From the NCBI RefSeq assembly GCF_000420325.1, contig NZ_ATUS01000005.1, positions 1 to 64,000 of the forward strand: a stretch of DNA of 64,000 bases, given 5' to 3'. The notes below the pieces were generated by a model. The model worked only from the letters and a program-made list of their open reading frames with translations. It searched no databases and was not told the DNA's origin. The translations under genes were made by a program, and so were the position numbers. Origin of the DNA: Spongiibacter tropicus DSM 19543. GTDB taxonomy: Bacteria; Pseudomonadota; Gammaproteobacteria; Pseudomonadales; Spongiibacteraceae. Shown one piece after another: positions 40,906 through 58,162 of the stretch (position 1 is its first letter; every line of letters begins with the position of its first letter).

Positions 40906-41745
40906 CTAGGCCGCGGCCTCACACTTTTTTGGCTGGGTGGTTTGTGGTGCCGGGGTCTGCGCTTCTGGTGAGCGCTGTTTTTCATAGAGGAAACTCAGCA
41001 CGCGTTGGCGGTACTGGTTGTACAGCGGATCATTGGCCAGACCGACCCGGTCGCGGGGGCGGTGAAGGCCGATGTCCAGGATTTCGCCGATGCTCGCGGC
41101 GGGGCCGTTACTCATCATCACAATGCGGTCGGACAGCAGTACGGCTTCATCCACATCGTGAGTAATCATGATGACGGTGTTGTTGAGCTGGCGCTGAATG
41201 CGCATCAGCGAATCCTGCAGGTGGGCGCGGGTCAGGGCGTCCAGTGCACCGAATGGCTCGTCCATCAGTAATACTTCCGGCTGCATGGCCAGTGCCCGGG
41301 CAATGCCGACCCGCTGCTTCATACCACCTGAGATTTCGTCCGGGCGTTTATGCAGCGCGTGATCCATTTGCACCAGCTCGAGGTTGTGCTCGATCCATTC
41401 ACGCATTTCGGCCCGGGTCTTTTTGCCTTTGAAGACCCGCTTGACTGCCAGCTCAACGTTTTCATAGGCGGTGAGCCAGGGCAGCAGCGAATGGTTTTGA
41501 AAGACCACCGCGCGCTCCGGTCCGGGTTCGTTGACTTCCTTTCCGTTCAGCACCACGCCACCTTCGGTCGCCTGGTGCAGGCCGGCGACAATGTTCAGCA
41601 CGGTGGACTTGCCACAGCCGGAGTGGCCGATCAGCGAGATAAACTCGCCTTTTTCAATTTTCAGATTGACCTTTTGCAGGGCGCAAAAAGGTCCTTTGGG
41701 TGTCGGGAATTCGATGCCGACATCGCTGAGTTCGAGTAATGCCAT
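40906..41745 (-). CDS. nrtD: Nitrate ABC transporter ATP-binding protein
   Basis: This 279-aa protein has Walker A GHSGCGKST, the Q-loop region, the signature ISGGMKQRVGIARALA (first residue Ile rather than Leu), Walker B LLMDEPFGALD and the switch HDVDEAVLLSDR. It powers nitrate import with NrtB. The tail of about 25 residues is Pro/Gln-rich and lacks an NrtC-like sensor domain. Confidence 0.93.
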   Translation of the reverse strand: MALLELSDVGIEFPTPKGPFCALQKVNLKIEKGEFISLIGHSGCGKSTVLNIVAGLHQATEGGVVLNGKEVNEPGPERAVVFQNHSLLPWLTAYENVELAVKRVFKGKKTRAEMREWIEHNLELVQMDHALHKRPDEISGGMKQRVGIARALAMQPEVLLMDEPFGALDALTRAHLQDSLMRIQRQLNNTVIMITHDVDEAVLLSDRIVMMSNGPAASIGEILDIGLHRPRDRVGLANDPLYNQYRQRVLSFLYEKQRSPEAQTPAPQTTQPKKCEAAA

Positions 41746-41768
41746 GATGTTGTCCTCTCGCTGTTGGC

Positions 41769-42773: not shown

Positions 42774-42793
42774 GGATAGGTTCTCCCCAGCCC

Positions 42794-44167
42794 TCAGAGG
42801 GCTTCTTTGCCTTTCAGGCCAATCGGGAATTTCTCCAGATAGGCGTTGGGCTTGCTGCCGTCGTAGGTGATGTTGTCGATAAAGTCGGCTTGCGGTGGCT
42901 TGAAGCCGCTTTCGGTATCGAAGTCAGGAAAGTCGCTGGCGCTCAGCACACCTTCGGCGATCAGCTCTTTGGCGGCAGCGGCGTAGATATCGGGACGGTA
43001 TACCTTGCGGGCGATGTCCATGTACCAGCTATCGGGTTTGGCCTCGGCAATCTGTCCCCAGCGGCGCATCTGGGTGAGATACCAGATGGCATCGGAGTAG
43101 TAGGGGTAGGTAGCGAAGTGGCGGAAGAAAACGTTGAAGTCGGCGGCGTCGCGGCGGTCGCCCTTCTCGAATTCAAAGCTGCCGGTCATGGAGTTGGCAA
43201 TGACTTCGCGGTCGGCACCGACATAGCGCGGCATGGCGAGCATCTTCACGGCTTCGTCGCGGTTGGCATTGTCGTTCTCATCGAGCCAGGCGGCAGCGCG
43301 GATCAGCGCTTTGACCACTTTGCGGTGAGTAATGGGGTATTTTTCCGCCCAGGTCTGGCTGACACCAAACACCTTTTCAGGATTGTTCTTCCAGATCTGG
43401 TAGTCGGTGACGACCGGCACGCCGATCCCCTTGAACAGCGCCTGCTGGTTCCAGGGTTCACCTACGCAATAGCCTTGAATCGTGCCGGCTTCGAGGGTGG
43501 CGGGCATCTGCGGTGGCGGCGTCACTGACAACAGTACATCAGCATTGAGCTGGCCGGAGTTATCGCCTTTTTGCGGCGCGTAATAACCGGGGTGAATCCC
43601 GCCGGCCGCCAGCCAGTAACGCAGTTCATAGTTGTGGGTAGAGACCGGGAAGACCATCCCCATGCGGAAGCGCTCACCGGCCTTGGCGTAGTCCGACACC
43701 ACGGGTTTCAGTGCCGCCGCGCTGATAGGATGCTGAGGCTTGCCATCTTCACGCTTGGACACATGGGGCTTCATCTGCTCCCATACACGGTTGGCAACAG
43801 TAATGGCGTTGCCGTTCAGATCCATGCTGAATGCAGTAATGATATGCGCTTGTGTACCGTAGCCGATGGTGGCCCCCAGAGGCTGACCGGCCAGCATATG
43901 TGCGCCGTCCAGTTGTCCGTCGATGACGCGGTCGAGCAATACTTTCCAGTTGGCCTGGGCCTCCAGCCGCACGTACAGGCCTTCGTCCTCGAAGAAGCCT
44001 TTTTCATAGGCCACCGCCAGTGGCGCCATGTCAGTGAGCTTGATAAACCCGAAGGTTAATTCTTCTTTCTCCGGGTAATCCTCGGCAACTGCCACGATTG
44101 AAGTCAGTGCAATCACCAGTGTTGCGCAGCAGTGGAGCCGGCGGCGTAGGGCCTTGAAGCCAGGCAT
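42794..44167 (-). CDS. nrtA: Nitrate-binding protein of ABC transporter
   Basis: This is a 457-aa protein from ATG 44167, preceded by an AAGGGGGA ribosome site. A signal peptide ([15 protein letters not shown]) is followed by [21 protein letters not shown] and [20 protein letters not shown], typical of NrtA/CmpA solute-binding proteins. It captures nitrate or nitrite in the periplasm. It is the first gene of nrtA-nrtB-nrtD-porin-oxidoreductase. Confidence 0.93.
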
Positions 44168-44201
44168 AGTGTCCCCCTTTAGGGCCCACAAAAATGCGGG
44201 C

Positions 44202-44287
44202 AAAAAAAAAAGGCGCGCCGACGAAATCTCGTCGGCAGCGCCTTTGCTGAATATCTGTTGGATAACGGCGGTTTCTACGTTGAAACC
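44202..44287 (-). promoter_or_regulatory. NasR-responsive antitermination leader of nrtA
   Basis: Read leftwards, P1 is GGTTTC, loop AACGTA, GAAACC (44287-44270). P2 is CAGC, loop AAAGGC, GCTG (44249-44236). Both hexaloops have A1 and G4. P2 overlaps the 5' arm of a terminator (44242-44212, GGCGC/GCGCC with inner CCGACGA/TCGTCGG) followed by ten T. The same architecture as the nasA leader makes this a second NasR target. Confidence 0.87.
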
Positions 44288-44493: not shown

Positions 44494-45237
44494 CTAGGAT
44501 TTGAAGCGCTGCCAGATTCGGTCGGGCAGATGGCCCAACAGTGGCCGGAACAGTGTCCAGGGAAAACGGGGCACAAACACATCTTTCCGACGCGCGAGAA
44601 TCGCCTTCGCCATTTCACTTGCGGCTTTTTCAGCTGAAATGGCGAAGGGGTAGCGGTCGATGTTCTCCATGATCTCGGTTTTGATAAAGCCGGGTCGTAT
44701 CTGGGTGACGTCGATATGCTTATCTTTGTGCTCAATGCGCAGCGCATCGAGATACATGGAAATTCCAGCTTTGGAGGCGCAGTAGGCTGCTTGGCTGGGG
44801 ATGGCCTGCAGGGAGGCCAATGAAGAAATGCCAACAATCTGACCCTGCCCGCGCTTCAGGAAATAAGCCACTGCAGCGTTGGCGGTGGCCATGGCACCGA
44901 GTAGATTCGTGCGGATAATGGCTGTTTCGTCAGCTAACTGACCGTGACCGACACGGGTGAAATTGTTGATGCCGGCATTGATGATTACACTGTCTACCCC
45001 GCCCAGTGCCGCGAATAGATCGAGCAGGCTGAGTTCTACGCTGTCGGTGTCGTCCACATCCAGTCTGGCGATGTGGACCTCGACACCAGTCTGCTGCTGC
45101 AGTTCGACTTGCAATGTTTCCAGCGCTTCCAGACGCCGTCCTGTGAGTCCAAGTCGGCAACCCCGTTTGGCGAATTCCCATGCAAGCGCTTTGCCGATGC
45201 CTGCGCTGGCACCGGTGATGATCAGAGTGTGAGACAC
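44494..45237 (-). CDS. Short-chain dehydrogenase/reductase
   Basis: This 247-aa protein has the NAD(P) motif TGASAGIGKAL near 8-18, NAGINNF near 89, and the catalytic Ser in GISSLASLQAIPSQ with YCASKAG (Tyr/Lys). It resembles SDRs acting on lipid or aromatic alcohols. The substrate cannot be told. It starts 29 bases after the TonB receptor stop, so the two form one operon under the operator at 47700. Confidence 0.88.
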   Translation of the reverse strand: MSHTLIITGASAGIGKALAWEFAKRGCRLGLTGRRLEALETLQVELQQQTGVEVHIARLDVDDTDSVELSLLDLFAALGGVDSVIINAGINNFTRVGHGQLADETAIIRTNLLGAMATANAAVAYFLKRGQGQIVGISSLASLQAIPSQAAYCASKAGISMYLDALRIEHKDKHIDVTQIRPGFIKTEIMENIDRYPFAISAEKAASEMAKAILARRKDVFVPRFPWTLFRPLLGHLPDRIWQRFKS

Positions 45238-45266
45238 GTTTTTCTCCTGTTTACGGCGGTGGCGGG

Positions 45267-47627
45267 TCAGAAGTAACGGCGCGCGGTCAGTCCAGCACTG
45301 AACGGCGCAATAGTGAAGGCCTGATAGGAGCCCTCGCTTGCGCCGATATTGCGATCGACTTGTGTGTGGACATTGGCCGGTGCGGTTTGGGCGATAGCGT
45401 CTTCATCACTCAGGTTTTTCCCCCATATGGCAATATCCCATTGAGCATTCTGCCATCCCAGACGAAGATTGGTGATGCCGTAGGCCTCGGTTTCGGCGCG
45501 GGGGTCCAGAGAGGCACTGTTATTGGCGCTACCGTTGTAGAGGTAGTCTAGTCGCGCATAGAACTCACCGGAAAACAGCGGGCGGTAGTAGTTCAGGGCG
45601 ATATTTCCTTTGAATCGGGTCGCTGAGGGCAGGCTCTCGCCGCTGAGGTCGCACTGCCCCAATGCGTTGTCTGGATTTCTACCGTAGTAGCACTGGCCGC
45701 CAGTGTATTCGTCGTAAATGGTATCAATGTAGGCTAGGTTGATATTGGCGACCAGCGAGGGCGTGAGGATAAAAGTGGAGTCGATTTCTACACCGCTAAC
45801 CGTCACCAGCTCGGCATTGTTCACCACGAAAATCAGACCGGCATAGCTGGCATTCTGAAAGTCTTCATACTCGGTGTAAAAAGCTGCCGCGTTTACTCGC
45901 GCCCGTTTGTCGAGAAACTCACTCTTCAGACCGATCTCGTAATTGGTGACGTTCTCCTCTCCGTAGGGACGAGATTCGCCGGTGGCCGTGCCGTTCTGCA
46001 GGCTGAAGCCTCCGGCCTTGAAGCCAGTGGAAATTGCGCCATAAAGCATAGTGTCAGTGCTGAGAAAATAGTTGCTTGAGAGCGAGCCTGTGACCGCTTC
46101 AAAATCGAGGGTGTCATCGTAGTTATTGCCGTCGGGGGTAACGCTACATAGCAGGTTGGTATTCAGCGGCGGAACGCAGCCCAGCGCCGATAGCTGATTG
46201 GATTGGTCGATGCGACCGTGTTTCTTCTCGTAGGAATAGCGCAGACCCAGTGACAGTTGCCACTGCTCTGAAAGCGTCAGGTCGTATTTGTTAAAGACGC
46301 CAAGACTTTCAGTTTGCTGTTTAACGTAGTAGTCGCCGCGATCACCGGCAACGCCCAGCGCGGGGATGGTCAACGGTAGGAGGTTAATCGGCAGCAGTCC
46401 TTGAGAAACCTGATAGTCAAATACCGCGTCGCCATAGGCGGCGATATCCTGCTGTGCAATAAATTCCGACAGTTCGCGATCACCGCGGATAAACGTATTT
46501 TCGTAGTAGAACAAGCCGGCCAGCCAGTTCAGGCGAGCATTGTCGTTGGACGCAAAACGCAGTTCCTGCGAAAACGAGTGCCCGTTCTGTACATCGAGGA
46601 AGTCGGCAAGCTGCAGGCTTTGCTGTTCCACATCGTTCACGCCATTGGCACTTTCGTAGTCGTCGTAGCTGCTGATGGCTGTCAGCGTCACCTTGTCGAA
46701 GGCGTATTCCAGTTTAAGGATGACATCGTTGCTTTCACTGTCGAAGGTGGTGTTATCGCGATATTCCACTTTGCGGTCGGTGGGATCATTGGCAATGCTC
46801 AGGCGGCCGCCAGCATTGGCGATAATTTCCCGGGCCGCTTCGCTCAGATAGACATCGCCGCTCATTGGATTCATGTCTTTCTCACTATAGCCGACAATCA
46901 GCCGGGCACTGAGTCGGTCGCTGAAGTCGGCCTGCAACTGGGCGCGAATGGCGCGGCTGTCCTGGGTGTCACTGTCGGCACCTGCGGTGTTGTCAATCCA
47001 CGCATCGCGATGGGTTTCCACCAGGCTTAGCCGCCCGCGCAACCAATGATTAAAAGGGCCGCTGATCGAGGTTTTGAGCTGTTGCAGATTGTCACTGCCG
47101 AGAGTGGCTTCCACCATGCCCTCAAGGCTTTCGCTGGGCGCTTTGGTAGTCACGCTGATCACCCCGGCGGTGACGTTTTTACCGTGCAGGGTACTCTGCG
47201 GCCCCTTGAGGACTTCCACCGATTGCACATCGGCCAGGTCGCCAATACCCATCCCGGAGCGCGATCGAAATGCGCCATCGATAAACAGGCCGGTAGCCGG
47301 TTCGAAGGTCGGGATGTTCCCGGCATTGCCGATATTGCGGATGCGGAAGGTGGCCGACAGCGGACTGATATTGGTCAATACAATCAGTGAGGGCACCTGG
47401 GCAGCGATGTCGGCAATATCGTTGAAACCGATGTCGTCGAGCTGATCGGCGGTGATCGCCGACACCGCGACCGGCACGTCCTGGAGATTCTCGGAACGCT
47501 TCTGCGCAGTAACGATCACTTCTTCGAGCTGGGGCGCAGCCAGCGCGGCGTGATTAACGGCCAGCGCCAGTGCCGTGCCAAGCAGTTTTGGCCTGCTATA
47601 GAAGGGTTTTTTGCGGAAAGATGTCAT
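45267..47627 (-). CDS. TonB-dependent outer-membrane receptor
   Basis: This is a 786-aa protein from ATG 47627. A signal peptide (PKLLGTALALAVNHAALA) is followed by the TonB box-like EEVIVTAQKR, the plug domain (DVPVAVSAITADQLDDIGFND, with VEVLKGPQSTLHGKN) and a 22-strand-type barrel ending in an aromatic. The plug style is that of receptors often linked to uptake of hydrophobic or aromatic compounds rather than siderophores. It leads an operon with the SDR and faces the DsbA-like gene across the TetR-type operator. Confidence 0.92.
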   Translation of the reverse strand: MTSFRKKPFYSRPKLLGTALALAVNHAALAAPQLEEVIVTAQKRSENLQDVPVAVSAITADQLDDIGFNDIADIAAQVPSLIVLTNISPLSATFRIRNIGNAGNIPTFEPATGLFIDGAFRSRSGMGIGDLADVQSVEVLKGPQSTLHGKNVTAGVISVTTKAPSESLEGMVEATLGSDNLQQLKTSISGPFNHWLRGRLSLVETHRDAWIDNTAGADSDTQDSRAIRAQLQADFSDRLSARLIVGYSEKDMNPMSGDVYLSEAAREIIANAGGRLSIANDPTDRKVEYRDNTTFDSESNDVILKLEYAFDKVTLTAISSYDDYESANGVNDVEQQSLQLADFLDVQNGHSFSQELRFASNDNARLNWLAGLFYYENTFIRGDRELSEFIAQQDIAAYGDAVFDYQVSQGLLPINLLPLTIPALGVAGDRGDYYVKQQTESLGVFNKYDLTLSEQWQLSLGLRYSYEKKHGRIDQSNQLSALGCVPPLNTNLLCSVTPDGNNYDDTLDFEAVTGSLSSNYFLSTDTMLYGAISTGFKAGGFSLQNGTATGESRPYGEENVTNYEIGLKSEFLDKRARVNAAAFYTEYEDFQNASYAGLIFVVNNAELVTVSGVEIDSTFILTPSLVANINLAYIDTIYDEYTGGQCYYGRNPDNALGQCDLSGESLPSATRFKGNIALNYYRPLFSGEFYARLDYLYNGSANNSASLDPRAETEAYGITNLRLGWQNAQWDIAIWGKNLSDEDAIAQTAPANVHTQVDRNIGASEGSYQAFTIAPFSAGLTARRYF

Positions 47628-47699
47628 GGCGGAGTCCCTGTTATCCGGGCGCCGACTGCGGCCCGATTTGTTGTTATTTTGGGCCACGCTATCACAGGG

Positions 47700-47714
47700 T
47701 TTACACTGTGTAAA
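47700..47714. promoter_or_regulatory. TetR-type operator, copy 1
   Basis: TTTACACTGTGTAAA is a perfect palindrome around a central T. It lies between the divergent TonB receptor and DsbA-like genes. The only close copy I found is at 53661-53675. It is the probable target of the TetR protein at 50716-51363. Confidence 0.78.
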
Positions 47715-47760
47715 TAAAATTGCTAGTATCGTTCCGTTGAATAAAAAAACATGGTGTGCC

Positions 47761-49035
47761 ATGACAATGCCGACTAAGGCGAGATGTAAGGCCCGTATCA
47801 TTCAGGGGGTGGCGGGCGGATATGCGCTGCTGCAGTCGCGCCGTGCGGCTCGTGAGAATGCGCAGGATGAGCTGGAGTTTTACTATGCGGTGGGTGATCC
47901 GCATTCACACCTGGCTGCGCAGTTGCTGCCGCGACTGCAGGCGCAGAGTAAGTTAACGATTCGCCTGCGACTGGTCTCCCAGCAGCAAAGCCCCATCTAC
48001 CCTGAAATTGACAAGCAGCGGCGCTTTGCTCTGAACGATGTGCCGCGTTTGGCCTCGGCGTATGGGCTGCAAACCGTGCCGATGAACGGCCCGCCTGATG
48101 ACGCTTTAACGACTCAGGCTAACACTTATCTGATGGCGGCCGACTCCCTTGAGGATTTCATACGGCGTGAGTGGCAAGTGGCCAGTGTGTTGTTTTCCGG
48201 ACAGGGCGACTTGCCCGTTGGCGACACCAAATCGGCAACTGACGTCGAAGAAACATTGCAGGCCAATAACCTGCGACGCGAACGGCTGGGGCACTACCTG
48301 CCTGCAATGTGGCAGTTTCGCGGCGATTGGTTCTGGGGTGTCGATCGCGTCGATGCGCTGCTGGCAGCTCTGAATCGGGCTGGGCTGTATGAGGGCCCGC
48401 TGACCTTGCTCTGCCATGCGAATAAAGCAGACCTTGGGGAGACGCCATCGGCCGGGACGCCACTGGAGTTCTTTTTCAGTTTTCGCAGCCCATATTCCTA
48501 TCTGGCTGCCGTGCAGTTGCAGCGTCGCTTGTCCTCCATGACGTTGCCCCTGTCAGTGCGACCGGTCCTGCCGATGGCCATGCGTGGCTTTAATATTCCC
48601 CTGGCCAAGCGTATGTACATTGTTCACGACGCGGGCCGGGAGGCAAAGCGTTTGGGGGTTCCTTTCGGGCTGATCAGTGACCCTATCGGTGAAGGCGCTT
48701 TGCGTTGTTTGAAAGTGTTCAGTCTGGCAGAGAGCCCGCCGCAGCAACTCGATTTCCTGGTGGAAGCGGGGCGGTGCGCTTGGGCAGAGGCCATTGATCT
48801 GGCTACTGACCGGGGGTTGCGAACCGTCTGCCAGCGGGTGGGTATCGAGTGGGCCGCCGCGCAGCGCTGTCTGACCGAGCCGCTGCCTGCCTATGCCCAG
48901 AATAACCTCGATGCGCTGCTGGATATGGGGTTTTGGGGCGTGCCGAGTTTTCGCCTCGGGCAGTTCACCAGTTGGGGGAATGATCGCATGTGGATGCTGG
49001 ATGAGTTGCAGCGCCGCGCAATGCCGTCTGATTGA
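47761..49035 (+). CDS. Tandem DsbA-like / HCCA-isomerase-type protein
   Basis: This is a 424-aa protein from ATG 47761. Two thioredoxin-fold DsbA-like domains occur in a row. The first (about 38-200) has LEFYYAVGDPHSHLAAQLLPR. The second (about 235-420) has LEFFFSFRSPYSYLAAVQLQRR, with MRGFNIPLAKRMYIVHDAGRE, matching 2-hydroxychromene-2-carboxylate isomerase/GST kappa. No CxxC is present, so it is not a disulfide oxidase. The first domain looks degenerate. It is first in an operon with a sulfatase and TetR. Confidence 0.82.
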   Translation: MTMPTKARCKARIIQGVAGGYALLQSRRAARENAQDELEFYYAVGDPHSHLAAQLLPRLQAQSKLTIRLRLVSQQQSPIYPEIDKQRRFALNDVPRLASAYGLQTVPMNGPPDDALTTQANTYLMAADSLEDFIRREWQVASVLFSGQGDLPVGDTKSATDVEETLQANNLRRERLGHYLPAMWQFRGDWFWGVDRVDALLAALNRAGLYEGPLTLLCHANKADLGETPSAGTPLEFFFSFRSPYSYLAAVQLQRRLSSMTLPLSVRPVLPMAMRGFNIPLAKRMYIVHDAGREAKRLGVPFGLISDPIGEGALRCLKVFSLAESPPQQLDFLVEAGRCAWAEAIDLATDRGLRTVCQRVGIEWAAAQRCLTEPLPAYAQNNLDALLDMGFWGVPSFRLGQFTSWGNDRMWMLDELQRRAMPSD

Positions 49036-49057
49036 ATCACAACGCTAGGAAATAATA

Positions 49058-50698
49058 ATGAAAAAAATCCTGCTCTCAATGCTGTTGATACTGTTACTGC
49101 TGGTGGCCGCGGTCTGGCCTCATCGCGGCGAATGGCTGCTGCGGGCGGTGATCGGACTGGATAATCTCCGGCACCCGGTGGCAGAGAATCAGCCGGTTCA
49201 CTGGCGGCAGGGAGAGGCCGCGCCCGGCGATCAGCGCCCCAATGTCATTCTGATTGTGGCGGATGATCTGGGTTTTAACGACATTAGCTTTCACCGCGGT
49301 GAGCAGGCGACCCTGCCGACACCGGCGATTGATGCTCTGGCCAGCCAGGGTGTGTCGTTCAGCAGCGCCTACGCAGGCAATGCCGTTTGTGCGCCGTCCC
49401 GGGCGATGCTGATGACCGGGCGTTATTCCACGCGCTTTGGCTTTGAGTTCACCCCGGCGCCGCGTAGCTTCGCCAAAATGTTCAAGATATTGCCGCAACC
49501 CCCCGGCGCCCTGCATCCGCCCGAGGTGGATATGGCGGCGGTAGACCGCTTGCCACCGTTTCAGTCCCTGGGCATGCCCGGCGAGGAAATTACGCTGGCA
49601 GAGCAGCTTCAGGCGGCGGGTTATCACACCCTGCATATTGGCAAGTGGCATTTGGGGCGGGACCAAGGCATGCGTCCCGAGCATCAAGGCTTCGATGAAA
49701 GCCTGCTGATGGAGAGCGGTCTGTACCTGCCAGTGGATGATCCGCAGGTGGTCAATGCCCGGCAGGGTTTCGATCCGCTGGACCGGGCGATCTGGCTGAG
49801 AATGCGTTATGCCGCGTCCTATAACGGTAGCCAACCCTTTGCCCCCAGCGGCTACCTGACGGATTACTACACCGATCAAGCGGTGAGTGCGATCGCGGCA
49901 AATAAGGATCGACCATTTTTCCTATACCTCGCCCACTGGGGCGTGCACTCACCATTGCAGGCGTTGAAAGCTGACTACGATGCGCTGTCGCATATTCAGG
50001 ATCATCGCCTGCGCGTGTACAGTGCCATGCTGCGCGCACTCGACCGCAGTGTGTCGAGGGTGATGCAGTCCTTGGTAGACAACGGTATCGACGACAATAC
50101 CCTGGTGATTTTTACCAGCGACAACGGTGCACCGGGCTATCTGGGTTTGCCGGACTTGAACGCACCGTTCCGTGGCTGGAAACTGAGCTTTTTTGAGGGA
50201 GGTGTGCGCGTGCCGTTTTATCTGCGCTGGCCGAAGCAGCTATCATCGGGCTTGCAGTATGATGCGCCGGTTTCCCATCTGGACGTGTTTGCCACAGTGG
50301 CTGCGGCTGTGGGTATCGCGCTGCCCCAGGACCGGGTGATGGACAGCGTGAATTTGCTGCCCTATGTGAACGCCGATATTCAGGGGCCTCCCCACGACGC
50401 GATTTTCTGGCGGGAGGGAGCTTATCAGGGCATGCGTGCCGGTGACTGGAAGCTGATGCGCTCGCCCAAGCCGCGTAAAATTTGGCTGTACAATCTCAAG
50501 GACGATCCGCTGGAAGCACAGAACCTTGCCGCAGAATACCCGCAGCAGGTAGCTGACATGGCCGCGCAACTGGACGAACACAACCGCCAGCAGCAGCCTT
50601 CGCGCTGGCCCTCAATCGTCAGCCTGCCCGTGCTGATCGATAAAACCATGGCTGACCCGGCCTCGGCAGAAGATGAATATATTTACTGGCCAAACTGA
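49058..50698 (+). CDS. Sulfatase (alkaline phosphatase superfamily), membrane-anchored
   Basis: In this 546-aa protein an N-terminal anchor or signal (LLSMLLILLLLVAAVWP) is followed by NVILIVADDLGFND, with metal-binding Asp pair. The formylglycine motif is CAPSR with Cys111, Pro113 and Arg115, followed by MLMTGRY. HIGKWHLG and FTSDNGAPG complete the active site. It hydrolyses a sulfate ester outside the cytoplasm. It lies 22 bases after the DsbA-like gene. Confidence 0.92.
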   Translation: MKKILLSMLLILLLLVAAVWPHRGEWLLRAVIGLDNLRHPVAENQPVHWRQGEAAPGDQRPNVILIVADDLGFNDISFHRGEQATLPTPAIDALASQGVSFSSAYAGNAVCAPSRAMLMTGRYSTRFGFEFTPAPRSFAKMFKILPQPPGALHPPEVDMAAVDRLPPFQSLGMPGEEITLAEQLQAAGYHTLHIGKWHLGRDQGMRPEHQGFDESLLMESGLYLPVDDPQVVNARQGFDPLDRAIWLRMRYAASYNGSQPFAPSGYLTDYYTDQAVSAIAANKDRPFFLYLAHWGVHSPLQALKADYDALSHIQDHRLRVYSAMLRALDRSVSRVMQSLVDNGIDDNTLVIFTSDNGAPGYLGLPDLNAPFRGWKLSFFEGGVRVPFYLRWPKQLSSGLQYDAPVSHLDVFATVAAAVGIALPQDRVMDSVNLLPYVNADIQGPPHDAIFWREGAYQGMRAGDWKLMRSPKPRKIWLYNLKDDPLEAQNLAAEYPQQVADMAAQLDEHNRQQQPSRWPSIVSLPVLIDKTMADPASAEDEYIYWPN

Positions 50699-50715
50699 CA
50701 GGACACCACGCTGAG

Positions 50716-51363
50716 ATGGCGGAGAAAAAAACGGCAAAGCGGAATTACCTGAATCGGCAGCAGCGCCGACAGCAGCTACTGGACACGGCGGCGTCGATTG
50801 TTGACGAGCAGGGTTGGTCGGGGCTGACCATGATTTCGCTGGCCGAGCGGGCCGAGGTGAGTCGCCAACTGATCTACCAGCATTTTACGGCCATTGATGA
50901 GTTGTTGCTGGAAACCATCAAGTACTTGTTTGGCAGTCTGTATCAGGACTCGCAGGCCGATTTTAATCAGCAGCCTAGCGATATTGAGCAGGCGGTACAG
51001 GCCCAGCACCGTCACTATCACGAGGACTTGTCTGCCGGGCGGGTGCGTGCCCTGTGGACGATTCTGTTCACCCCCTATAACGCCAATGAACCCATTGCCA
51101 AAGCGGCGCGTATGATTCGCCGTCTCAGCGCCGATGTGCCTGCCGCCGCAATACCGGGCCTGGTGGGCGTAGAATTGGCCGATGATCAGCGGCGGCAAAT
51201 TGGTTTCATGATCGACATGCTGTTCTGGGGCAGTTATAGCCTGGTGAGCGATGGCGAGATGGATGAAGACAGTGCGCTTGAGCTGCTGTTGTGGATGCTG
51301 CGGCGCTTCAAGTCCGGTGAGTCGGCGGGCCTGCCGCCAGCATTTCGCAAATCCGCCAAATAA
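50716..51363 (+). CDS. TetR-family transcriptional regulator of the sulfatase cluster
   Basis: In this 215-aa protein the N-terminal HTH (QQLLDTAASIVDEQGWSGLT, then ISLAERAEVSRQLIYQHFTA) is typical TetR. The C-terminal ligand-binding part is helical and unspecific. It is third in the DsbA-like/sulfatase operon, 17 bases after the sulfatase. The two palindromes at 47700-47714 and 53661-53675 are its likely operators, giving control over four units around it. Confidence 0.9.
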   Translation: MAEKKTAKRNYLNRQQRRQQLLDTAASIVDEQGWSGLTMISLAERAEVSRQLIYQHFTAIDELLLETIKYLFGSLYQDSQADFNQQPSDIEQAVQAQHRHYHEDLSAGRVRALWTILFTPYNANEPIAKAARMIRRLSADVPAAAIPGLVGVELADDQRRQIGFMIDMLFWGSYSLVSDGEMDEDSALELLLWMLRRFKSGESAGLPPAFRKSAK

Positions 51364-51373
51364 TCCAGGGCTA

Positions 51374-52489
51374 TCACGCGGCGACCCGACAGATGGCCGT
51401 GCCCGCTTTTTCCAGCCGCCAAGGTATCGTGCTTTTTAGCAGGGGCAAAAAGCCGGTGTCGGCAAGCAGGATGTCGGCACGGTGCTGCTGTTCCTCTGAC
51501 AGCGTCCGGTAGGCAATTGCTACCCGCTGTAATTTCCAGGCCACATAGGTCGAACTGGCCGCAGTTACCTCAACGCCCTCAATGCTCGCTGGTGCCGGCC
51601 CGAAGGACGCGGGGAGGATGTCGCTGTCATTGCTGGCAATACCCTCGGCGACGGCCCGCCATGTGGTCTCGGCCATGGTGGCAAATGGCGCTGCGAGTTT
51701 GGCGAGAAATGCAGGCAGTTGCGGATCGTTGCACAATTCGCCATCGCTGGCTTCTCCCGCCGCAGCGTGCATACGCATCATCCACATCGACAGCTTCGTG
51801 CAGTGGCGCCGCAGGTGTTCCCCGGCCTCGCAGGGGTCCATATACAGATGGCCGAACAGGCCGTTCATCATTGCTACATCGGCAAGGCAGGGGCGGTTGC
51901 CAAGCAGGAAACGCTGCTGACTCAGGCGCTGTTCCAGTGTGTCCAATATGCGGTGGGTGAGCTTTCTGCTGAGGGTCTGTACCTCGTCCCGGTCCTGTCC
52001 CAGTTTGCGCACTTTGGCCTGAATACCTTCGGCGACCAGTTCAGAGACCCCTTCGGCCTGCGCGCGCAGTTCGGCGTCGTCGAGATCGGTGTGCAAGACC
52101 GTTTGAAACATACCGAGTGCCCACTGGCGAGTGTCTTCTGGAATCCAGCGGTAGTAGATGAACGGGGCGACAAAAAACTCATCGCAGAGCGTTTCGAGCA
52201 GCAGGCAGGCCACGGTGAGTACCGGGTCGTCGGGCGTCAGTGGGCGCTCAGGGTGACGTCGTTCAAGGGTTTCGACGATATCGCAACTGTCGTTCAGCAG
52301 CTCACCGTCAGGGCAGAAAACCACCGGAAATTTGGCTTCGCCGGTGCGTGGCATCACTTCCTGAAAAAGAGCCTGAAAATTGCTCGCCCGCTCCGTGTAG
52401 GGCAGGCGTTTGTACTGCAGGCAGGCGCGGACCTTGGCGGAGTAGTAGGAATATTGTGTGGCGATCAGAATATAGTCTTGCTGAGGCAT
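51374..52489 (-). CDS. Glutathione S-transferase-like protein with long C-terminus
   Basis: In this 371-aa protein residues 1-80 form a GST N-domain (YILIATQYSYYSAKVRACLQYK, then EAKFPVVFCPDGELLNDSCDIVETLER with the conserved Pro and SCDI segment). A helical C-domain follows to about 230 and an extra region of about 140 residues beyond the usual GST length, ending in basic and Ala residues. It is second in the MBL-GST operon. It could conjugate or isomerise an intermediate using glutathione. Confidence 0.82.
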   Translation of the reverse strand: MPQQDYILIATQYSYYSAKVRACLQYKRLPYTERASNFQALFQEVMPRTGEAKFPVVFCPDGELLNDSCDIVETLERRHPERPLTPDDPVLTVACLLLETLCDEFFVAPFIYYRWIPEDTRQWALGMFQTVLHTDLDDAELRAQAEGVSELVAEGIQAKVRKLGQDRDEVQTLSRKLTHRILDTLEQRLSQQRFLLGNRPCLADVAMMNGLFGHLYMDPCEAGEHLRRHCTKLSMWMMRMHAAAGEASDGELCNDPQLPAFLAKLAAPFATMAETTWRAVAEGIASNDSDILPASFGPAPASIEGVEVTAASSTYVAWKLQRVAIAYRTLSEEQQHRADILLADTGFLPLLKSTIPWRLEKAGTAICRVAA

Positions 52490-52515
52490 AGTGGCGTCCG
52501 AATTCAGTAATGGAT

Positions 52516-53598
52516 TTACCGCAGGGAGTCTGTGCGAATAGCCGTGCTGTTGGCGGGCAGGCTGAAGAAGTCGCCGTCGCGGGTAATGCTGATGGGGCCG
52601 TTGTAGTGCTCAGCGCTTCCCTGAATAAACAGTTTTTCCAGGTAGCGCAGCGGCAGGCCAGGAACGATGTGGTTCAGTGCCAGGTAGTGCGCCCCGGCGG
52701 CCTGGGCAATGTCCGCGGCCTGCTGCGGGGTGGTGTGGTAGTCGAGTATGTCTTCGGAAATCTGGGCCATGTGCTCGACTCCCACGGCACTGGCGGCGCG
52801 CTGCATCACATTCACTAATTGTGGTGATAGCGCTTCGTGAAGTAGCAGGTCTGCGTCTTCTGCTAGGGCTTGAACATTGGCGCTTTTGCGGGTGTCGCCG
52901 GAAATCACCACGCTGCGGCCTTTGTAGTCAAAGCGATAACCCACGGCATTGGGTACGGGATAATGGTCGACCCCAAAGGCGGTAATGCGCAAGCCGTCCC
53001 GCTCAAGAAGCAGCGAGCGCTCCCCGTTGTTAATTGCCGCAAAGGGGCGGGCGAGAAGTCCGGCGCCGGAGGGCAATACTGTTTTGGTGCCGTGGTGGTC
53101 GATGCGGTATTGGGTATCCTGGGCGTAAGCCTGATTAAAACCGTCGACAATTTGTTCTACCCCTGGTGGGCCGTAGACATCCAACGGCTTGGCCTGATGG
53201 CCACCTGCCCATCGCTGAACGGAAAGCTCGCCCAGCGCATCAATATGGTCGGAGTGAAAGTGAGTGAGTAGCACGGCACTGGCACGACCCGCAGATAGCC
53301 CTGCTGGGCCGAGATTGCGAATACTGCCACTGCCAGCGTCGACGATGTAAAGCTGCTTGCCTGCGATAACCGCAGTGCAGGGACCAGCGCGGTGCGGGTC
53401 GGGAATCGGCGAGCCTGCCCCGCAGATGTACACATGCAGACCGTCGGGTAATTCACTCATAAAGTGGTTACTGAGAGTGCCTTCAACCTGGCGCTGCATA
53501 GCGCGTAAAACGAGCTGGTTGCCGGCTTGCCAGATGAATACTGCGCTGACGACGAATAATAGCAGGAGGCTCAGGCCGAATTTGGAACGTGTTGTCAT
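52516..53598 (-). CDS. Membrane-anchored metallo-beta-lactamase-fold hydrolase
   Basis: This is a 360-aa protein from ATG 53598. An N-terminal membrane span (FGLSLLLLFVVSAVFIW) is followed by a hydrolase with THFHSDHIDALGE (HxHxDH) near 112-124, GDTRKS and a late His (LALNHIVPG). This type resembles RNase Z/arylsulfatase-like MBL proteins. It would act on the periplasmic side. It leads an operon with the GST and is divergent from sulfatase 2. Confidence 0.85.
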   Translation of the reverse strand: MTTRSKFGLSLLLLFVVSAVFIWQAGNQLVLRAMQRQVEGTLSNHFMSELPDGLHVYICGAGSPIPDPHRAGPCTAVIAGKQLYIVDAGSGSIRNLGPAGLSAGRASAVLLTHFHSDHIDALGELSVQRWAGGHQAKPLDVYGPPGVEQIVDGFNQAYAQDTQYRIDHHGTKTVLPSGAGLLARPFAAINNGERSLLLERDGLRITAFGVDHYPVPNAVGYRFDYKGRSVVISGDTRKSANVQALAEDADLLLHEALSPQLVNVMQRAASAVGVEHMAQISEDILDYHTTPQQAADIAQAAGAHYLALNHIVPGLPLRYLEKLFIQGSAEHYNGPISITRDGDFFSLPANSTAIRTDSLR

Positions 53599-53660
53599 TG
53601 GATTATTCTCGTTGTTATTAATGGCCATGACTGGACAGTTCGCGACATTCTGCATTAAAG

Positions 53661-53675
53661 TTTACATTGTGTAAA
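53661..53675. promoter_or_regulatory. TetR-type operator, copy 2
   Basis: TTTACATTGTGTAAA differs from copy 1 at a single base. It lies 63 bases before the MBL start and 82 before sulfatase 2, so it can control both divergent operons. Confidence 0.78.
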
Positions 53676-53756
53676 TAATTGTGTGGGCGCCGCCGATACG
53701 TCAGGCCGGCGGCGCTCGACGCAAGCAGTAATGCATAACAATAACGATACGAGGAC

Positions 53757-55502
53757 ATGCCTGTGCTGAGGCGAACCCTATACTGCGGCCTGCTGTTGAT
53801 GGCGCCTGTGCTCGCACAGGCGGCGCCACCGAACATTGTGCTGATTCTGGCCGATGATCTCGGCTTTACCGACATTCAGCCCTTTGCCAGCGAAATTGCC
53901 ACCCCCAGTCTGGCGGCACTGGCAGATAACGGCATTCGTTTCACCAACCACCATGTGGCGGCAAGCTGCGCACCGACCCGGGCAATGCTGCTGACCGGCG
54001 TGGACAGTCACCTGAACGGCGTGCCGAATATTCCCGAGGCCATGCCACCCAGTCAGCGGGGCCGTAATGGCTATGATGGCGTGCTGTCTCATCGGGTGCA
54101 GACGGTGGCAACACTGCTGCGCGAACACGGATATCACACCTATGTTTCGGGCAAGTGGCATTTGGGCAAGGATGCGAGTCGTTTGCCAGATCAGCGCGGC
54201 TTTGAGCGCAGTGTGATTCTGGCAGACAGCGGTGCAGATAACTGGTCCCAGCGCCCCTATCTGCCCATGTACCGCACGGCGCAGTGGTACAAGGACGGGC
54301 AACCCCATCAGTTGCCGAATGAGTTTTATTCTTCGGAATACATCGTCGACCAGGCAATAGCGCAGATTGATAGTCAACATGGCGATGGTCAGCCGTTTTT
54401 TTCCTACGTAGCGTTTCAGGCCGTACATATTCCCGTACAGGTGCCCGCCGCGTACCGGGCCATGTATGAAAGCCATTATCAGCAGGGTTGGTCGGCACTG
54501 CGCGAGCAGCGCTACCGGGCAGCGGTGGCGGCTGGGTTAGTGCCGCCTTCCACCGCGTTGACTGCAATGAATAGCACGGCGGATTGGATGGCGCTCAGTA
54601 ATGCGCAGCAGCGCGATTGGGCGCGACGCATGGCGGTGTATGCGGGGATGGTGCAGGCGATGGACCACCACATAGGCCGTTTGGTCGAGCATCTGAAAAC
54701 GCTGGGGGAATACGACAACACTGTGTTTGTGTTCATGTCGGATAACGGCCCTGAGCCCGCCGACCCGGTCGCCCGCTTTGGCCTGCCTTTTGTGCTGTGG
54801 ATGAAGGCCATGGGCTTCAATACTGACTATGGCACCTTGGGTGAACGCGATAGCTATGTGGTGATTGGTCCCGGCTTTGCCAGCGCGGCGGCCTCGCCGT
54901 TGTCCTACTACAAATACTATGCTGGGGAAGGTGGGCTGAGAGTGCCGATGATTATTGCCGGGGCCGGCGTTGCAGCACCGGGGCGGCAGTCACCAGCGCT
55001 GACCCATGTGACTGATATTGTGCCGACGTTGTTAGACCTCAGTGGCGCTGCGCCGCCGGGAGACGACTACTATCAGCCCTCTGGCAAGAGCTTGTTGCCG
55101 GTGCTCGCCGACCAACGTGAGCGCGTGCGGGGGGAAGACGATGCGCTTGGCTACGAACTGGGTGGCAATGCCGCGCTGTTCAAGGGTGACTATAAACTGG
55201 TGAAAAACCTTCCTCCTGCGGGAGACGGCCGCTGGCATTTATATAACATTGTCAGTGATCCGGGAGAGAGCCGAGACCTGAGTGAGAGCATGCCGGAGCG
55301 TCTGGCCGCCATGTTGGCCGATTATGAGGATTATGCTCGGCGCAACGGTGTATTGGCCGTGCCGGATGGTTATGATCAGCTTCAGCAAGTGAGTTGGAAT
55401 TCGATTATGGCGAGAAAAACAGAGTGGCTATCGGCAGGGTTGCTGCTGTTCGTACTGGTGTACGGCGGGCTTCTCTGGCGGCGTAAGCGGCTGCGGGGAT
55501 AA
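53757..55502 (+). CDS. Second sulfatase, C-terminally membrane-anchored
   Basis: In this 581-aa protein a signal peptide (YCGLLLMAPVLAQAAP) is followed by NIVLILADDLGFTDI. The formylglycine motif CAPTR has Cys71, Pro73 and Arg75, and is followed by AMLLTG. VSGKWHLGKD and FMSDNGPEP are present. Near the end there is a transmembrane segment (LSAGLLLFVLVYGGLLW) and a basic tail. The different anchor and active-site surroundings suggest a substrate or step different from sulfatase 1. The stop overlaps the cytochrome start. Confidence 0.92.
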   Translation: MPVLRRTLYCGLLLMAPVLAQAAPPNIVLILADDLGFTDIQPFASEIATPSLAALADNGIRFTNHHVAASCAPTRAMLLTGVDSHLNGVPNIPEAMPPSQRGRNGYDGVLSHRVQTVATLLREHGYHTYVSGKWHLGKDASRLPDQRGFERSVILADSGADNWSQRPYLPMYRTAQWYKDGQPHQLPNEFYSSEYIVDQAIAQIDSQHGDGQPFFSYVAFQAVHIPVQVPAAYRAMYESHYQQGWSALREQRYRAAVAAGLVPPSTALTAMNSTADWMALSNAQQRDWARRMAVYAGMVQAMDHHIGRLVEHLKTLGEYDNTVFVFMSDNGPEPADPVARFGLPFVLWMKAMGFNTDYGTLGERDSYVVIGPGFASAAASPLSYYKYYAGEGGLRVPMIIAGAGVAAPGRQSPALTHVTDIVPTLLDLSGAAPPGDDYYQPSGKSLLPVLADQRERVRGEDDALGYELGGNAALFKGDYKLVKNLPPAGDGRWHLYNIVSDPGESRDLSESMPERLAAMLADYEDYARRNGVLAVPDGYDQLQQVSWNSIMARKTEWLSAGLLLFVLVYGGLLWRRKRLRG

Positions 55503-57745
55503 TGGTGCGGCATGTTATCGCAGCCTGTTGGCTGTTTATTGCTTTGTTTTGTGGCACTGCCCGTGCCGAATTCTCATTGACGGTCAATCAGCCAGAAAGC
55601 TGTGCTGGCTGCCATCAGGTACAGTTCAGCCAGTGGCAGGCGTCCCAGCATGCCGAGGCCATGCAGCCCACCAGTTCAAAGACGGTACTGGGCAATTTCG
55701 ATGGCCAATCGCTGACGCATGCCGGCGTGCGCTATCGCTTTCTGGAAGCGGAAGGGCGTTACCAGATTGCTCTGACAGCGCCGGATCAGCCGGAACGCCT
55801 ATTCGATGTTCGCTACACCTTCGGGGTGTATCCCTTGCAACAGTATCTGGTCGACCTGCCGGGCGGGCGTTTGCAGGCCCTGCCTGTTGCCTGGGACAGT
55901 CGCCGTGCGGCAGAAGGTGGTCAGCGTTGGTACGGGCTGGATTCCGATCTGGGCTGGGATCACTACGCGTTTACCTGGAATACCAGTTGTGCGGAATGCC
56001 ATTCCACCGGGGTGGAGAAGGGGTATGACGCTGCGCAGAATCGTTTTGACACCCACTGGCAATTCGTCAATGTGAGCTGTCAGGCCTGCCACGGGAATGC
56101 AGAAGGTCACCAGCAGTGGCTGCGCAATCAGCAGCCCTCGTCGGTGGCGCATTCGGGGTTTGCGGCGACGCTGGCGGAGCGGGGCAGTTGGTATCTGCCC
56201 GAGAAGGCCAGTATTGCCCGGCGTCGGGACCGGCCCGATGGGGGCCAGCTTTCCGCCTGCGGCCAGTGCCACAGTCTGGGTACTCGTATCGACAGCTGGC
56301 AACCGGGTTCGCAGCTCGACGATCACCTCAGCCTGATGTTGCCGAATACACCGCTTTATCACCTCGATGGTCAGATTGATGCGGAGGTCTTTGTCGCGGG
56401 GTCTTTTCGGCAAAGCAAGATGCACGACGCGGGGGTGGTCTGCAGCGACTGCCATAATCCGCACTCACTGACACTGCGGGCGGAGGGCAACGCACTGTGC
56501 AGTCAGTGTCATCTACCCGATCATTACGATCGGCCCGCGCATCACGGTCACCCGGAACACAGCCGCGGTGCGCAATGTGTGAATTGCCACATGCCCGCAA
56601 CAGTGTATATGGGCGTGGACGCGAGGCGCGATCACCGTTTCGGTATTCCCAGTCCGGCCCTTAGTAAGTCGATTGGCGTGCCCAATGCCTGCAGCCAGTG
56701 TCATGTCGATAAAAGCCCCGACTGGCTGATTGCCGGAATGCCGGGTAGCACAACGCAGGCAGACGCTGTGTCACTTTGGCTGCACCAGCTTGATCGCGGC
56801 GAGATCACGGCGCTGCCCCGTTTACTGGATTACGTTTCCACTGCCAATGGACACCGCTTTCGGCAGGCCAGGGTGATGGCAGCGTTGGGGGCGCAGATAG
56901 ATGATCCCGCGCTGACCGAGCTGGCGCGTCGCAAGCTGCGGAGTCATGACCCCGCCCTCCAGCGGGCGGCGGTGGAGATTCTTGAGCGTCTGCCTCTGGA
57001 CGACCGCCTGTTGATGCTGTTGCCCCATCTGGATGAGCCGGTCAAATCGGTGAGGCTGGCGGTTGCCAGGGTGCTGGCTGAAGGATTGGTCCGGGGAGAT
57101 CTGAGTGATGCGGATCGTCAGCGCCTGTCCCGGCGAGTGAAAGAATACCGGCAGTCCTTGCAGCGCAATGCCGATCATCCGGCATCGCAAATGGCGTTGG
57201 GGAATTTATCGTTGGCAATGGGCGAGGAGGAGGCAGCAGAAAATGCCTACCGGCAGGCTCTGCGGATTGATGTGTCGTATTCCCCGGCCTCGATTAATCT
57301 TGCGGACTTGTACCGGCAGCGCGGCGACGAAGCAAAGGCCCAACAGATACTGCTTGCTGCACGACAGCTAGCGGATGACGCTGCGATTTCCTATGCACTG
57401 AGTATGAGCTACTTCCGTCAGCGTAAGCTTGATGACGGCCTTGACGCGATTAGTCACGCAGTGACATTGGCGCCAATGAACAGCGATTACGTGTATGCCC
57501 AGGCGGTGGCGCTGGAGCAATCCGGTCAGCCCCTGGAGGCCATAGCCGCGCTTGAGCGAGCTCTGAAACGACAGGGCGAGCGTCGCCAGCTAGTGGAATT
57601 ACTCAGTCTGTATGCGGTGAATTATCAGTCACCGGCTGAGGCGTTGCCCCACGTTTTGCGCTGGCGAACGCTGGCGCCGGATGACCGTCGAGCTGCAGCG
57701 ATTGAACAAGGTCTGCGCAGACAGCTTGCTCGGCCCACCCAATAG
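55502..57745 (+). CDS. Octaheme c-type cytochrome with HEAT and TPR repeats
   Basis: This 747-aa protein has a signal peptide and eight CxxCH motifs in the first 410 residues (CAGCH, CAECH, CQACH, CGQCH, CSDCH, CSQCH, CVNCH, CSQCH). A HEAT-like region follows (about 470-540), then TPR repeats (about 560-735). It is a periplasmic electron-transfer protein, perhaps with a scaffold role. One-base overlap with the sulfatase stop indicates a joint operon. A redox link to sulfate-ester turnover has no clear precedent known to me. Confidence 0.88.
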   Translation: MVRHVIAACWLFIALFCGTARAEFSLTVNQPESCAGCHQVQFSQWQASQHAEAMQPTSSKTVLGNFDGQSLTHAGVRYRFLEAEGRYQIALTAPDQPERLFDVRYTFGVYPLQQYLVDLPGGRLQALPVAWDSRRAAEGGQRWYGLDSDLGWDHYAFTWNTSCAECHSTGVEKGYDAAQNRFDTHWQFVNVSCQACHGNAEGHQQWLRNQQPSSVAHSGFAATLAERGSWYLPEKASIARRRDRPDGGQLSACGQCHSLGTRIDSWQPGSQLDDHLSLMLPNTPLYHLDGQIDAEVFVAGSFRQSKMHDAGVVCSDCHNPHSLTLRAEGNALCSQCHLPDHYDRPAHHGHPEHSRGAQCVNCHMPATVYMGVDARRDHRFGIPSPALSKSIGVPNACSQCHVDKSPDWLIAGMPGSTTQADAVSLWLHQLDRGEITALPRLLDYVSTANGHRFRQARVMAALGAQIDDPALTELARRKLRSHDPALQRAAVEILERLPLDDRLLMLLPHLDEPVKSVRLAVARVLAEGLVRGDLSDADRQRLSRRVKEYRQSLQRNADHPASQMALGNLSLAMGEEEAAENAYRQALRIDVSYSPASINLADLYRQRGDEAKAQQILLAARQLADDAAISYALSMSYFRQRKLDDGLDAISHAVTLAPMNSDYVYAQAVALEQSGQPLEAIAALERALKRQGERRQLVELLSLYAVNYQSPAEALPHVLRWRTLAPDDRRAAAIEQGLRRQLARPTQ

Positions 57746-57775
57746 AAAAAAACACCGCCAGATAAGGATAAGAAA

Positions 57776-58162
57776 ATGAAAAAATTGCTAAGTGGTCTGC
57801 TGTGGGGGATTGGGCTGTTATTTATGCTGCTGGGACTGCGCTGGCTGATTGATCCACAGGCGTCTGCCGATACATTGGGTATGGTCTTGTCAGACGGGGT
57901 GGGGCGCAGCTCGCAGATTGGGGATTTCGGCGCCTTCTTTTTCACGGGTGGGCTGTGGGTCTTGCTTGGCGTCTGGCGCAAGGCGCCGGTATTTCTCTAT
58001 GTCGCGGCGACCACACTGGGTAGCGCTGCGTTGTTTAGATTGATTGCCTGGGCGGCTCAGGGCGCGGCGCTGACAGTGGACATGATCGCGGTGGAAGTGG
58101 TGATCGCCGCGATTCTGTTACTGGCTGCGCGTCTGAACTCCCGGCTCGGTACGGCCCGCTGA
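57776..58162 (+). CDS. Small integral membrane protein (DUF4345-like)
   Basis: In this 128-aa protein four hydrophobic spans (about 4-24, 48-66, 73-91, 98-118) fill the sequence. The short polar link after span 1 (DPQASADTLGMVLSDGVG) recalls DUF4345-type proteins. It follows the cytochrome by 30 bases with an AGGATAAG ribosome site, so probably ends the same operon. Function unknown. Confidence 0.7.
   Translation: MKKLLSGLLWGIGLLFMLLGLRWLIDPQASADTLGMVLSDGVGRSSQIGDFGAFFFTGGLWVLLGVWRKAPVFLYVAATTLGSAALFRLIAWAAQGAALTVDMIAVEVVIAAILLLAARLNSRLGTAR

Follow-up and report, generated by a model that had tools for sequence, protein, structure and literature searches.

A putative TetR regulon for a sulfated small molecule in Spongiibacter tropicus and an octaheme cytochrome as a candidate sulfatase-activating factor

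A sulfatase gene cluster with two palindromes

The window analysed here is the whole stretch of 64,000 nucleotides from Spongiibacter tropicus DSM 19543 (contig NZ_ATUS01000005.1, positions 1 to 64,000 of the forward strand). Towards its right end lies a cluster of ten genes and two palindromes, which a first-pass annotation had described as a TetR regulon with paired operators for the turnover of a sulfated compound. The explanation that we propose for the whole is a TetR regulon for a sulfated small molecule, in which an octaheme cytochrome takes the place of the formylglycine-generating enzyme (FGE) as activator of S1 sulfatases; as a single package this is a tentative reading, just short of an even call. 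The features are as follows.

44494..45237, minus strand: short-chain dehydrogenase/reductase (SDR) oxidoreductase, second gene of the TonB operon; PF00106, E 7e-44; orthologue in three other clusters
45267..47627, minus strand: TonB-dependent receptor; PF00593, PF07715
47700-47714: predicted operator 1, TTTACA-NNN-TGTAAA, TTTACACTGTGTAAA, between the TonB receptor and DsbA2 genes; -35-like hexamer overlap on the plus strand
47761..49035, plus strand: DsbA2, tandem protein resembling DsbA, 2-hydroxychromene-2-carboxylate (HCCA) isomerase and kappa glutathione S-transferase (GST), 424 amino acids; PF01323 in the C-terminal half; HCCA isomerases are the best PDB sequence matches
49058..50698, plus strand: S1 sulfatase A (SulfA), N-terminal hydrophobic segment, CAPSR; PF00884, E 2e-52
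50716..51363, plus strand: TetR regulator, third gene in the operon downstream of operator 1; PF00440, E 9e-10, 38.6 bits, cut-off 24
51374..52489, minus strand: GST-like protein, 371 amino acids; PF13417, E 4e-13
52516..53598, minus strand: metallo-beta-lactamase (MBL)-fold hydrolase, N-terminal hydrophobic segment, HFHSDH; PF12706/PF00753; 8gyg, E 1.7e-31; start inferred from relatives L041/L042
53661-53675: predicted operator 2, TTTACA-NNN-TGTAAA, TTTACATTGTGTAAA, between the MBL and sulfatase B genes; -35-like hexamer overlap on the minus strand
53757..55502, plus strand: S1 sulfatase B (SulfB), Pseudomonas arylsulfatase (PAS) type, CAPTR, C-terminal hydrophobic segment; PF00884, E 1e-59; 1hdh, E 3.5e-106
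55502..57745, plus strand: octaheme c-type cytochrome with 8 CXXCH, HEAT/TPR region and signal-like N terminus; candidate sulfatase-activating factor
57776..58162, plus strand: hydrophobic protein of 128 amino acids, probably membrane; without Pfam match, relatives in several clusters

The gene types named in the first-pass annotation are borne out by Pfam and, for the cytochrome, by its eight CXXCH motifs. Gene spacing fits the four operons (TonB and SDR; DsbA2, SulfA and TetR; MBL and GST; SulfB, cytochrome and membrane protein). The open reading frame (ORF) of the TonB receptor, listed to 47801, probably starts at 47627, and the starts of DsbA2 at 47761 and MBL at 53598, placed by eye from the sequence and relatives, are probable as well; with these corrections both palindromes become intergenic.

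Evidence for a TetR regulon

TTTACA-NNN-TGTAAA was found at both expected places, one in each divergent promoter region. A scan of the window at up to 3 mismatches returned 4 strand-hits against 0.97 expected, all four of them the two predicted operators, and TTTACAYTGTGTAAA at up to 2 mismatches matched only operators 1 and 2, each on both strands, in the whole genome (7 contigs, 3,947,342 bases). The looser pattern TTTACRNNNTGTAAA with 1 mismatch was not specific in the same genome, giving 3 forward and 6 reverse hits versus 3 and 8 for the reversed-pattern control.

Relatives were then compared across 145 genomes, S. tropicus and 144 others (genomes and loci are given below by G and L numbers). 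With S. tropicus included, the TetR gene is carried by 8 (E <= 1e-15), the TonB receptor by 10 (E <= 1e-120) and DsbA2 by 50 (E <= 1e-20). The motif stands at matching promoters in all eight TetR genomes (S. tropicus and seven others), even where TetR identity is 37-38%. These genomes hold 17 sites, in which positions 1, 3, 4 and 5 and their mirror positions are invariant when both strands are counted. Further sites occur outside this set: a 2-mismatch site lies between sulfatase A and the cytochrome in the cluster of G002 (L065), a genome with no TetR match, and other loci gave 3 sites at up to 1 mismatch in L106-L176 (1.29 Mb) and two more in L053 and L074.

At each operator one half-site is a -35-like hexamer on one strand, and the palindromes could be merely back-to-back -35 elements: TTTACA is close to TTGACA, and at each site one strand also has a -10-like hexamer at a fitting distance. 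Because of this overlap a half motif alone is weak evidence and the conserved second arm is what counts. Both arms are kept throughout the 17 sites; a second site lies 21 bp away in G020 (L043); and in G006 the TonB gene, about 1.47 Mb from the other cluster genes, still has an upstream site (L092). The TonB-paralogue loci of G002 and G010 (L093, L094, L101), two genomes with no TetR match, have no site at up to 2 mismatches. An origin of the palindromes as promoter elements only is therefore very improbable, and the -35 overlap itself fits simple repression.

The regulator has a TetR_N helix-turn-helix domain and the conserved palindrome in its own promoter, as in an autoregulatory repressor. 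Footprinting in 8/8 TetR genomes strongly supports the two paired operators and four operons of the first-pass annotation, and on this comparative evidence the regulon is very probably real. The TetR-type repressor would bind TTTACA-NNN-TGTAAA at the two divergent promoters and keep all four operons repressed in the absence of a sulfated small molecule or of something formed from it.

Conservation of the cluster

Four clusters have a common gene order (the window, L041, L042 and L043), the cytochrome being absent from L042 and L043. Rearranged versions at L058, L061, L062 and the split L063/L064 hold sulfatases A and B, the cytochrome and TetR, with mostly TonB, MBL and the membrane protein, and L057, L060, L065, L066 and L073 are subsets without TetR. 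Orthologues of the SDR and of the 371-residue GST occur only in the four clusters of common order. The expectation that the gene set would be kept together elsewhere thus holds for a core conserved in the family, to which the SDR and this GST do not belong.

Among the best 80 of 175 matches, TonB receptor identity is 62-87% in nine named loci and then 30%, and the close relatives are confined to Zhongshania/Spongiibacteraceae. At L101, L102 and L103 (Z. antarctica, Z. aquimaris, BJYM1) a TonB paralogue (62-63%) lies within about 10 kb of SulfB homologues (53-55%). These loci, without a close palindrome near the TonB gene, may represent a sister sulfate-ester locus under other control. In several places (loci L044-L080), DsbA2 of relatives occurs with GST, acyl-CoA ligase and acyl-CoA dehydrogenase genes.

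Predicted pathway and substrate

Sulfatases A and B combine PF00884 with the C/S-x-P/A-x-R motif (CAPSR, CAPTR) and are thus S1 sulfatases. The closest match of SulfB is the Pseudomonas arylsulfatase 1hdh. The best match of the MBL protein is 8gyg, a solved MBL-fold chain named arylsulfatase, and its HFHSDH (HxHxDH) is kept; it also scores, below cut-off, against RNase Z and GntH models. As the MBL protein is most like an MBL-fold arylsulfatase, the cluster probably holds three sulfatases. DsbA2 matched HCCA isomerases at E about 1e-7 and kappa GST at 0.002 among PDB sequences.

The suggestion of a sulfated, perhaps aromatic compound is plausible in view of the SulfB and MBL relatives and because Pfam finds neither glycoside hydrolases nor polysaccharide lyases in the ten proteins of the cluster. 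Weighing against it, the nearest relatives of SulfA are carrageenan S1 sulfatases, with steryl-sulfatase lower down, and such relatives do not favour a small substrate; our estimate was lowered slightly for this reason. With ten proteins that include no carbohydrate-active enzyme, a small, perhaps aromatic sulfate ester is our best guess and, on balance, a probable one. A polysaccharide utilisation locus was dropped on the same absence, although SulfA is nearest to carrageenan sulfatases. Chlorosulfolipid and sulfated bromophenol substrates were also dropped; they had been prompted by alpha/beta-hydrolase and GST genes that lie near DsbA2 in relatives, outside this cluster. That alpha/beta-hydrolase appears dehalogenase-like, by impression from its sequence.

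The gene types suit the uptake and desulfation steps assigned to the pathway earlier; the glutathione chemistry is a guess, and the octaheme cytochrome is probably no pathway oxidase. A sulfated small molecule would enter via the TonB receptor and be desulfated in the periplasm by the two S1 sulfatases and the MBL-fold protein, a predicted arylsulfatase. Cytosolic processing of the desulfated core would then fall to DsbA2 (the tandem protein resembling HCCA isomerase and kappa GST), the GST and the SDR. In the literature covered, from which subscription journals were mostly missing, no publication was found pairing Zhongshania with sulfatase. Upstream of the cluster, positions 35472-44203 hold a nitrite/sulfite-reductase-like protein and an ABC transporter with an NMT1-type binding protein, resembling ordinary nitrate assimilation.

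Sulfatases, FGE and the cytochrome across 145 genomes

S1 sulfatases require formylglycine, generated from Cys or Ser of C/S-x-P/A-x-R, according to an excerpt of PMC6189696. The S. tropicus genome has four S1 sulfatases, all Cys-type CxPxR. The identified S1 activators are FGE and the anaerobic sulfatase-maturating enzyme (anSME). Neither an FGE match (PF03781) nor an anSME match (TIGR03942) was found in the S. tropicus genome at E <= 0.001, the anSME search covering this genome.

For a census of the 145 genomes, cut-offs of E <= 1e-30 for the cytochrome, E <= 1e-55 for FGE (a profile of ten proteins, all with the catalytic Cys pair) and E <= 1e-50 for S1 were used; the fourth S. tropicus sulfatase falls below the last. 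The cytochrome was found in 56 genomes, FGE in 12 and S1 in 77. Cytochrome genes were present in 54/77 S1-positive versus 2/68 S1-negative genomes (Fisher p 8e-19), so that 54 of the 56 carriers have S1; FGE was present in 12/77 and 0/68. The 77 S1-positive genomes divide into 51 with the cytochrome only, 9 with FGE only, 3 with both (G001, G007, G094) and 14 with neither. Among them the cytochrome is under-represented where FGE occurs, at 3/12 FGE carriers versus 51/65 of the rest (p 0.0006). Because of this partial exclusion, the same job is suggested for both.

The FGE calls were compared with PF03781, which is broad, matching 110/145 genomes. Nineteen PF03781 regions were inspected: the Cys pair was present in 2 (G097 and G124, already counted as FGE), 11 had a comparable stretch without the pair, and a motif scan found no such stretch in 6. 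This inspection covered 9 of the 14 genomes with neither gene, leaving out G033, G085, G128 and G132; G009 has no PF03781 match. Forty sulfatase regions sampled from FGE, cytochrome and neither genomes yielded 39 aligned motifs, Cys being present in 39/39. Three sulfatases of G043 depart from C-x-P/A-x-R (CAHTR, CSLTR, CQQTR).

These patterns could reflect lifestyle, sulfatase bacteria tending to carry the cytochrome and the FGE pattern being noise. FGE genomes number only 12, related genomes do not count as independent, and without regard to families DsbA2, too, is associated with S1 (p 0.005). We permuted within families, using the 136 genomes with a readable family; the other 9 have none of the three genes. 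The S1-cytochrome association survived (54 versus 46.0 +/- 1.8; 0 of 20000 permutations), as did the deficit with FGE (3 versus 6.5 expected; 148 of 20000). The DsbA2 control showed neither effect (S1, 35 versus 32.9, 2642 of 20000; FGE, 6 versus 6.0), and since DsbA2 does not track S1 within families, a general partnership between the cytochrome and DsbA2 genes was rejected. Five families (f1, f16, f24, f39, f42) each hold cytochrome-only and FGE-only members. With the adjacency across bacterial groups described below, this lifestyle reading is quite unlikely.

A near-minimal pair is provided by Z. marina ZX-21 (G016) and Z. aliphaticivorans BC9_2A (G017), each with exactly two S1 matches at E <= 1e-50, sulfatases A and B. 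G017 carries the cytochrome but lacks FGE, and G016 carries FGE (E 8e-151) but gives no cytochrome match. About 0.2 kb is left between SulfB and the membrane protein in G016, and by eye a portion of it looks like the 3' end of the cytochrome gene of G017. G020, a 70%-complete metagenome-assembled genome of Spongiibacteraceae, likewise has FGE and no cytochrome match. In G007, FGE lies beside the single S1 match and the cytochrome frame is broken by a nonsense codon near the start. Decay of six cytochrome matches, raised by apparent internal stops, was ruled out for five, the frames in G018, G080, G021, G071 and G130 being intact with 8 CXXCH; only G007 is interrupted.

Physical linkage of the cytochrome and sulfatase genes

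Of 40 further cytochrome loci, 13 have an S1 gene immediately adjacent and 15 have one no more than three genes away. Some carriers are not included in these 40 loci, some contigs are short, and the sulfatase profile was built partly from these neighbours. With 1 to 12 S1 matches per S1-positive genome, chance adjacency was estimated at about a percent or less. By coordinates, at least 5 of the 12 FGE genomes (G001, G007, G108, G063 and G097) have FGE next to an S1 match.

A plasmid collection contains 142 records with cytochrome relatives, from which a varied selection of 13 regions was viewed. Ten of these have a sulfatase no more than two genes away (Rhizobium binae, Methylocystis, two Pseudoalteromonas, R. 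indicum, two Vibrio, Roseibium, Methylosinus OB3b and Sinorhizobium meliloti), and an eleventh, Aureibacter, has one at three genes. On the plasmid of Aureibacter tunicatorum (L322), positions 3442-9193 hold a split sulfatase followed by cytochrome b N-terminal and Rieske genes and then the octaheme cytochrome, an arrangement that hints at a possible quinol-to-octaheme path with quinol-derived electrons. Adjacency thus extends over Gammaproteobacteria, Alphaproteobacteria and one Bacteroidota record. On the plasmid of Vibrio sp. SCSIO 43139 (L320) an octaheme cytochrome, a TetR regulator and an arylsulfatase stand side by side, a possible minimal regulon.

The linked S1 enzymes are of several kinds (SulfA-like, PAS-like, CTAGR, CTPGR and an 800-residue type) in unrelated contexts, and those with a readable motif keep the Cys, Aureibacter excepted. 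Linkage to several sulfatase kinds suggests that the target of the cytochrome is the enzymes themselves and not a single product. Taken with the census, a functional link of the cytochrome to S1 sulfatases is highly probable.

A respiratory or catabolic partner would instead take electrons from the desulfated product, such as a hydroquinone or phenol, or from another periplasmic step, with an unrelated maturase replacing FGE. The cytochrome has promoters in common with the pathway genes, octaheme proteins are usually redox enzymes, and the 14 S1 genomes with neither system leave room for a further maturase. The linked S1 kinds are too varied for any single product and the cytochrome is under-represented where FGE occurs, and we regard this role as fairly unlikely. 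On the same two grounds the cytochrome is probably not a pathway oxidase and more likely acts on the sulfatases.

Properties of the octaheme cytochrome

Exactly 8 CXXCH are present in 46/48 homologous ORFs (6 in L219, 7 in L247). Conservation is found in the octaheme region and not in the HEAT/TPR tail, and a conserved segment between hemes 1 and 2, PLQQYL...WD.R....GGQRW, was matched to no family. The cytochrome is like the octaheme cytochromes HAO, octaheme tetrathionate reductase and MccA in its eight c-type hemes and in a weak similarity to TIGR04315 (octaheme tetrathionate reductase), at 24 bits against a cut-off of 375 and so outside that family. It differs from them in the absence of CXXCK from all 48 homologues, in the segment between hemes 1 and 2 and in the HEAT/TPR tail. 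No PF03781 match was found in it by Pfam, and it is thus no FGE by sequence. A literature search of titles and abstract openings, with few subscription journals, found no reported link of formylglycine or sulfatases to multiheme or other cytochromes, heme or TPR.

The cytochrome as candidate activator

Formylglycine formation under aerobic conditions requires either O2 plus a reductant or a net withdrawal of electrons, and a multiheme protein could in principle serve. We propose that the cytochrome/TPR protein is a predicted exported, periplasmic factor that would activate S1 sulfatases in place of FGE, and no catabolic enzyme. Most likely the heme domain would turn the Cys of C-x-P/A-x-R into formylglycine while the HEAT/TPR part holds the sulfatase in its unfolded state; chemistry and electron source are conjectural. 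Formylglycine generation by the cytochrome is a possibility that we rate somewhat short of even. We rate in the same tentative way the broader claim of a third formylglycine-generating system that would be heme-based, exported and exchangeable with FGE in the course of evolution, and spread in Gammaproteobacteria, Alphaproteobacteria and at least one Bacteroidota plasmid.

The cytochrome might also act on sulfatases without making formylglycine, through Cys redox state, cofactor delivery or periplasmic chaperoning, in addition to another maturase. The TPR/HEAT region suits protein binding, and the sulfatase linkage and FGE evidence apply equally. Nine S1 genomes (G016, G004 and others) have FGE without the cytochrome, a better fit to replacement of the whole function, and an accessory role of this kind is unlikely.

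Several observations weigh against activation by the cytochrome. At the chosen cut-offs 14/77 S1-positive genomes have neither gene; two of these are G043, with 9 S1 matches and Cys in the 6 sulfatases sampled, and G070, with 8 matches and Cys in the 4 sampled. G001 and G094 have both FGE and the cytochrome, and in G018 and G080 the cytochrome is intact and no S1 sulfatase matches at E <= 1e-50. In the family of S. tropicus alone the cytochrome is found in 2/5 FGE carriers versus 9/10 of the rest (p 0.08). Among the plasmid regions, L319 (Alteromonas sp. 76-1) and L323 (Qingshengfaniella) have no sulfatase within 7 kb; in Aureibacter the nearby sulfatase is split, its motif not read, and another is Ser-type. 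S. meliloti carries the cytochrome on a plasmid alongside a putative FGE stated in an excerpt of PMC6189696. Prediction of the cytochrome structure from 5 aligned sequences gave a mean predicted local distance difference test (pLDDT) score of 53.5, with residues 147-470, the heme region, below 50, and we recognised no heme ligand or substrate site. E. coli is not known to have such a cytochrome, and it activates sulfatases without FGE.

Given the 14 genomes with neither gene, the 3 with both (one interrupted), the 2 with the cytochrome and no S1, and S. meliloti, exclusion between the two genes is partial. Different compartments or a further system could explain these cases. The Cys-type S1 enzymes of G043, G070, G131 and G132 (L327-L339), which have neither gene, perhaps depend on anSME or another system, or reflect assembly gaps.

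Relation to known systems and significance

FGE/SUMF1 (PF03781), a copper-dependent aerobic maturase, is like the cytochrome in its proposed role and its frequent adjacency to S1, and the FGEs of Z. marina (L177) and G020 (L179) have, by eye, an export-signal-like start, as does the cytochrome. It is an unrelated protein, lacking the octaheme and HEAT/TPR architecture. anSME also has the role proposed here; it is a radical-SAM enzyme and is cytosolic. A third sulfatase maturation system proposed for E. coli and mentioned in an excerpt of PMC6189696 is similar in that Cys-type sulfatases are activated without FGE or anSME; as E. coli is not known to have the cytochrome, the two systems are probably not the same. 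The arylsulfatases 1hdh (PAS-type) and 8gyg (MBL-fold) are sequence relatives of SulfB and the MBL protein, combined here in one predicted TetR regulon with TonB uptake and glutathione-type enzymes.

In 2007 Benjdia reportedly inferred the third E. coli system, raising a gap similar to that of S. tropicus, with four Cys-type sulfatases and neither activator matched. If the proposal is true, many sulfatases would gain a missing activator, and active-sulfatase production and aldehyde-tag chemistry would gain a new tool. Multiheme cytochromes would have a new role in protein modification. The regulon would be a genetically simple, presumably inducible test system, and the two related Zhongshania species, with seemingly different activators for the same two enzymes, may amount to a natural swap experiment.

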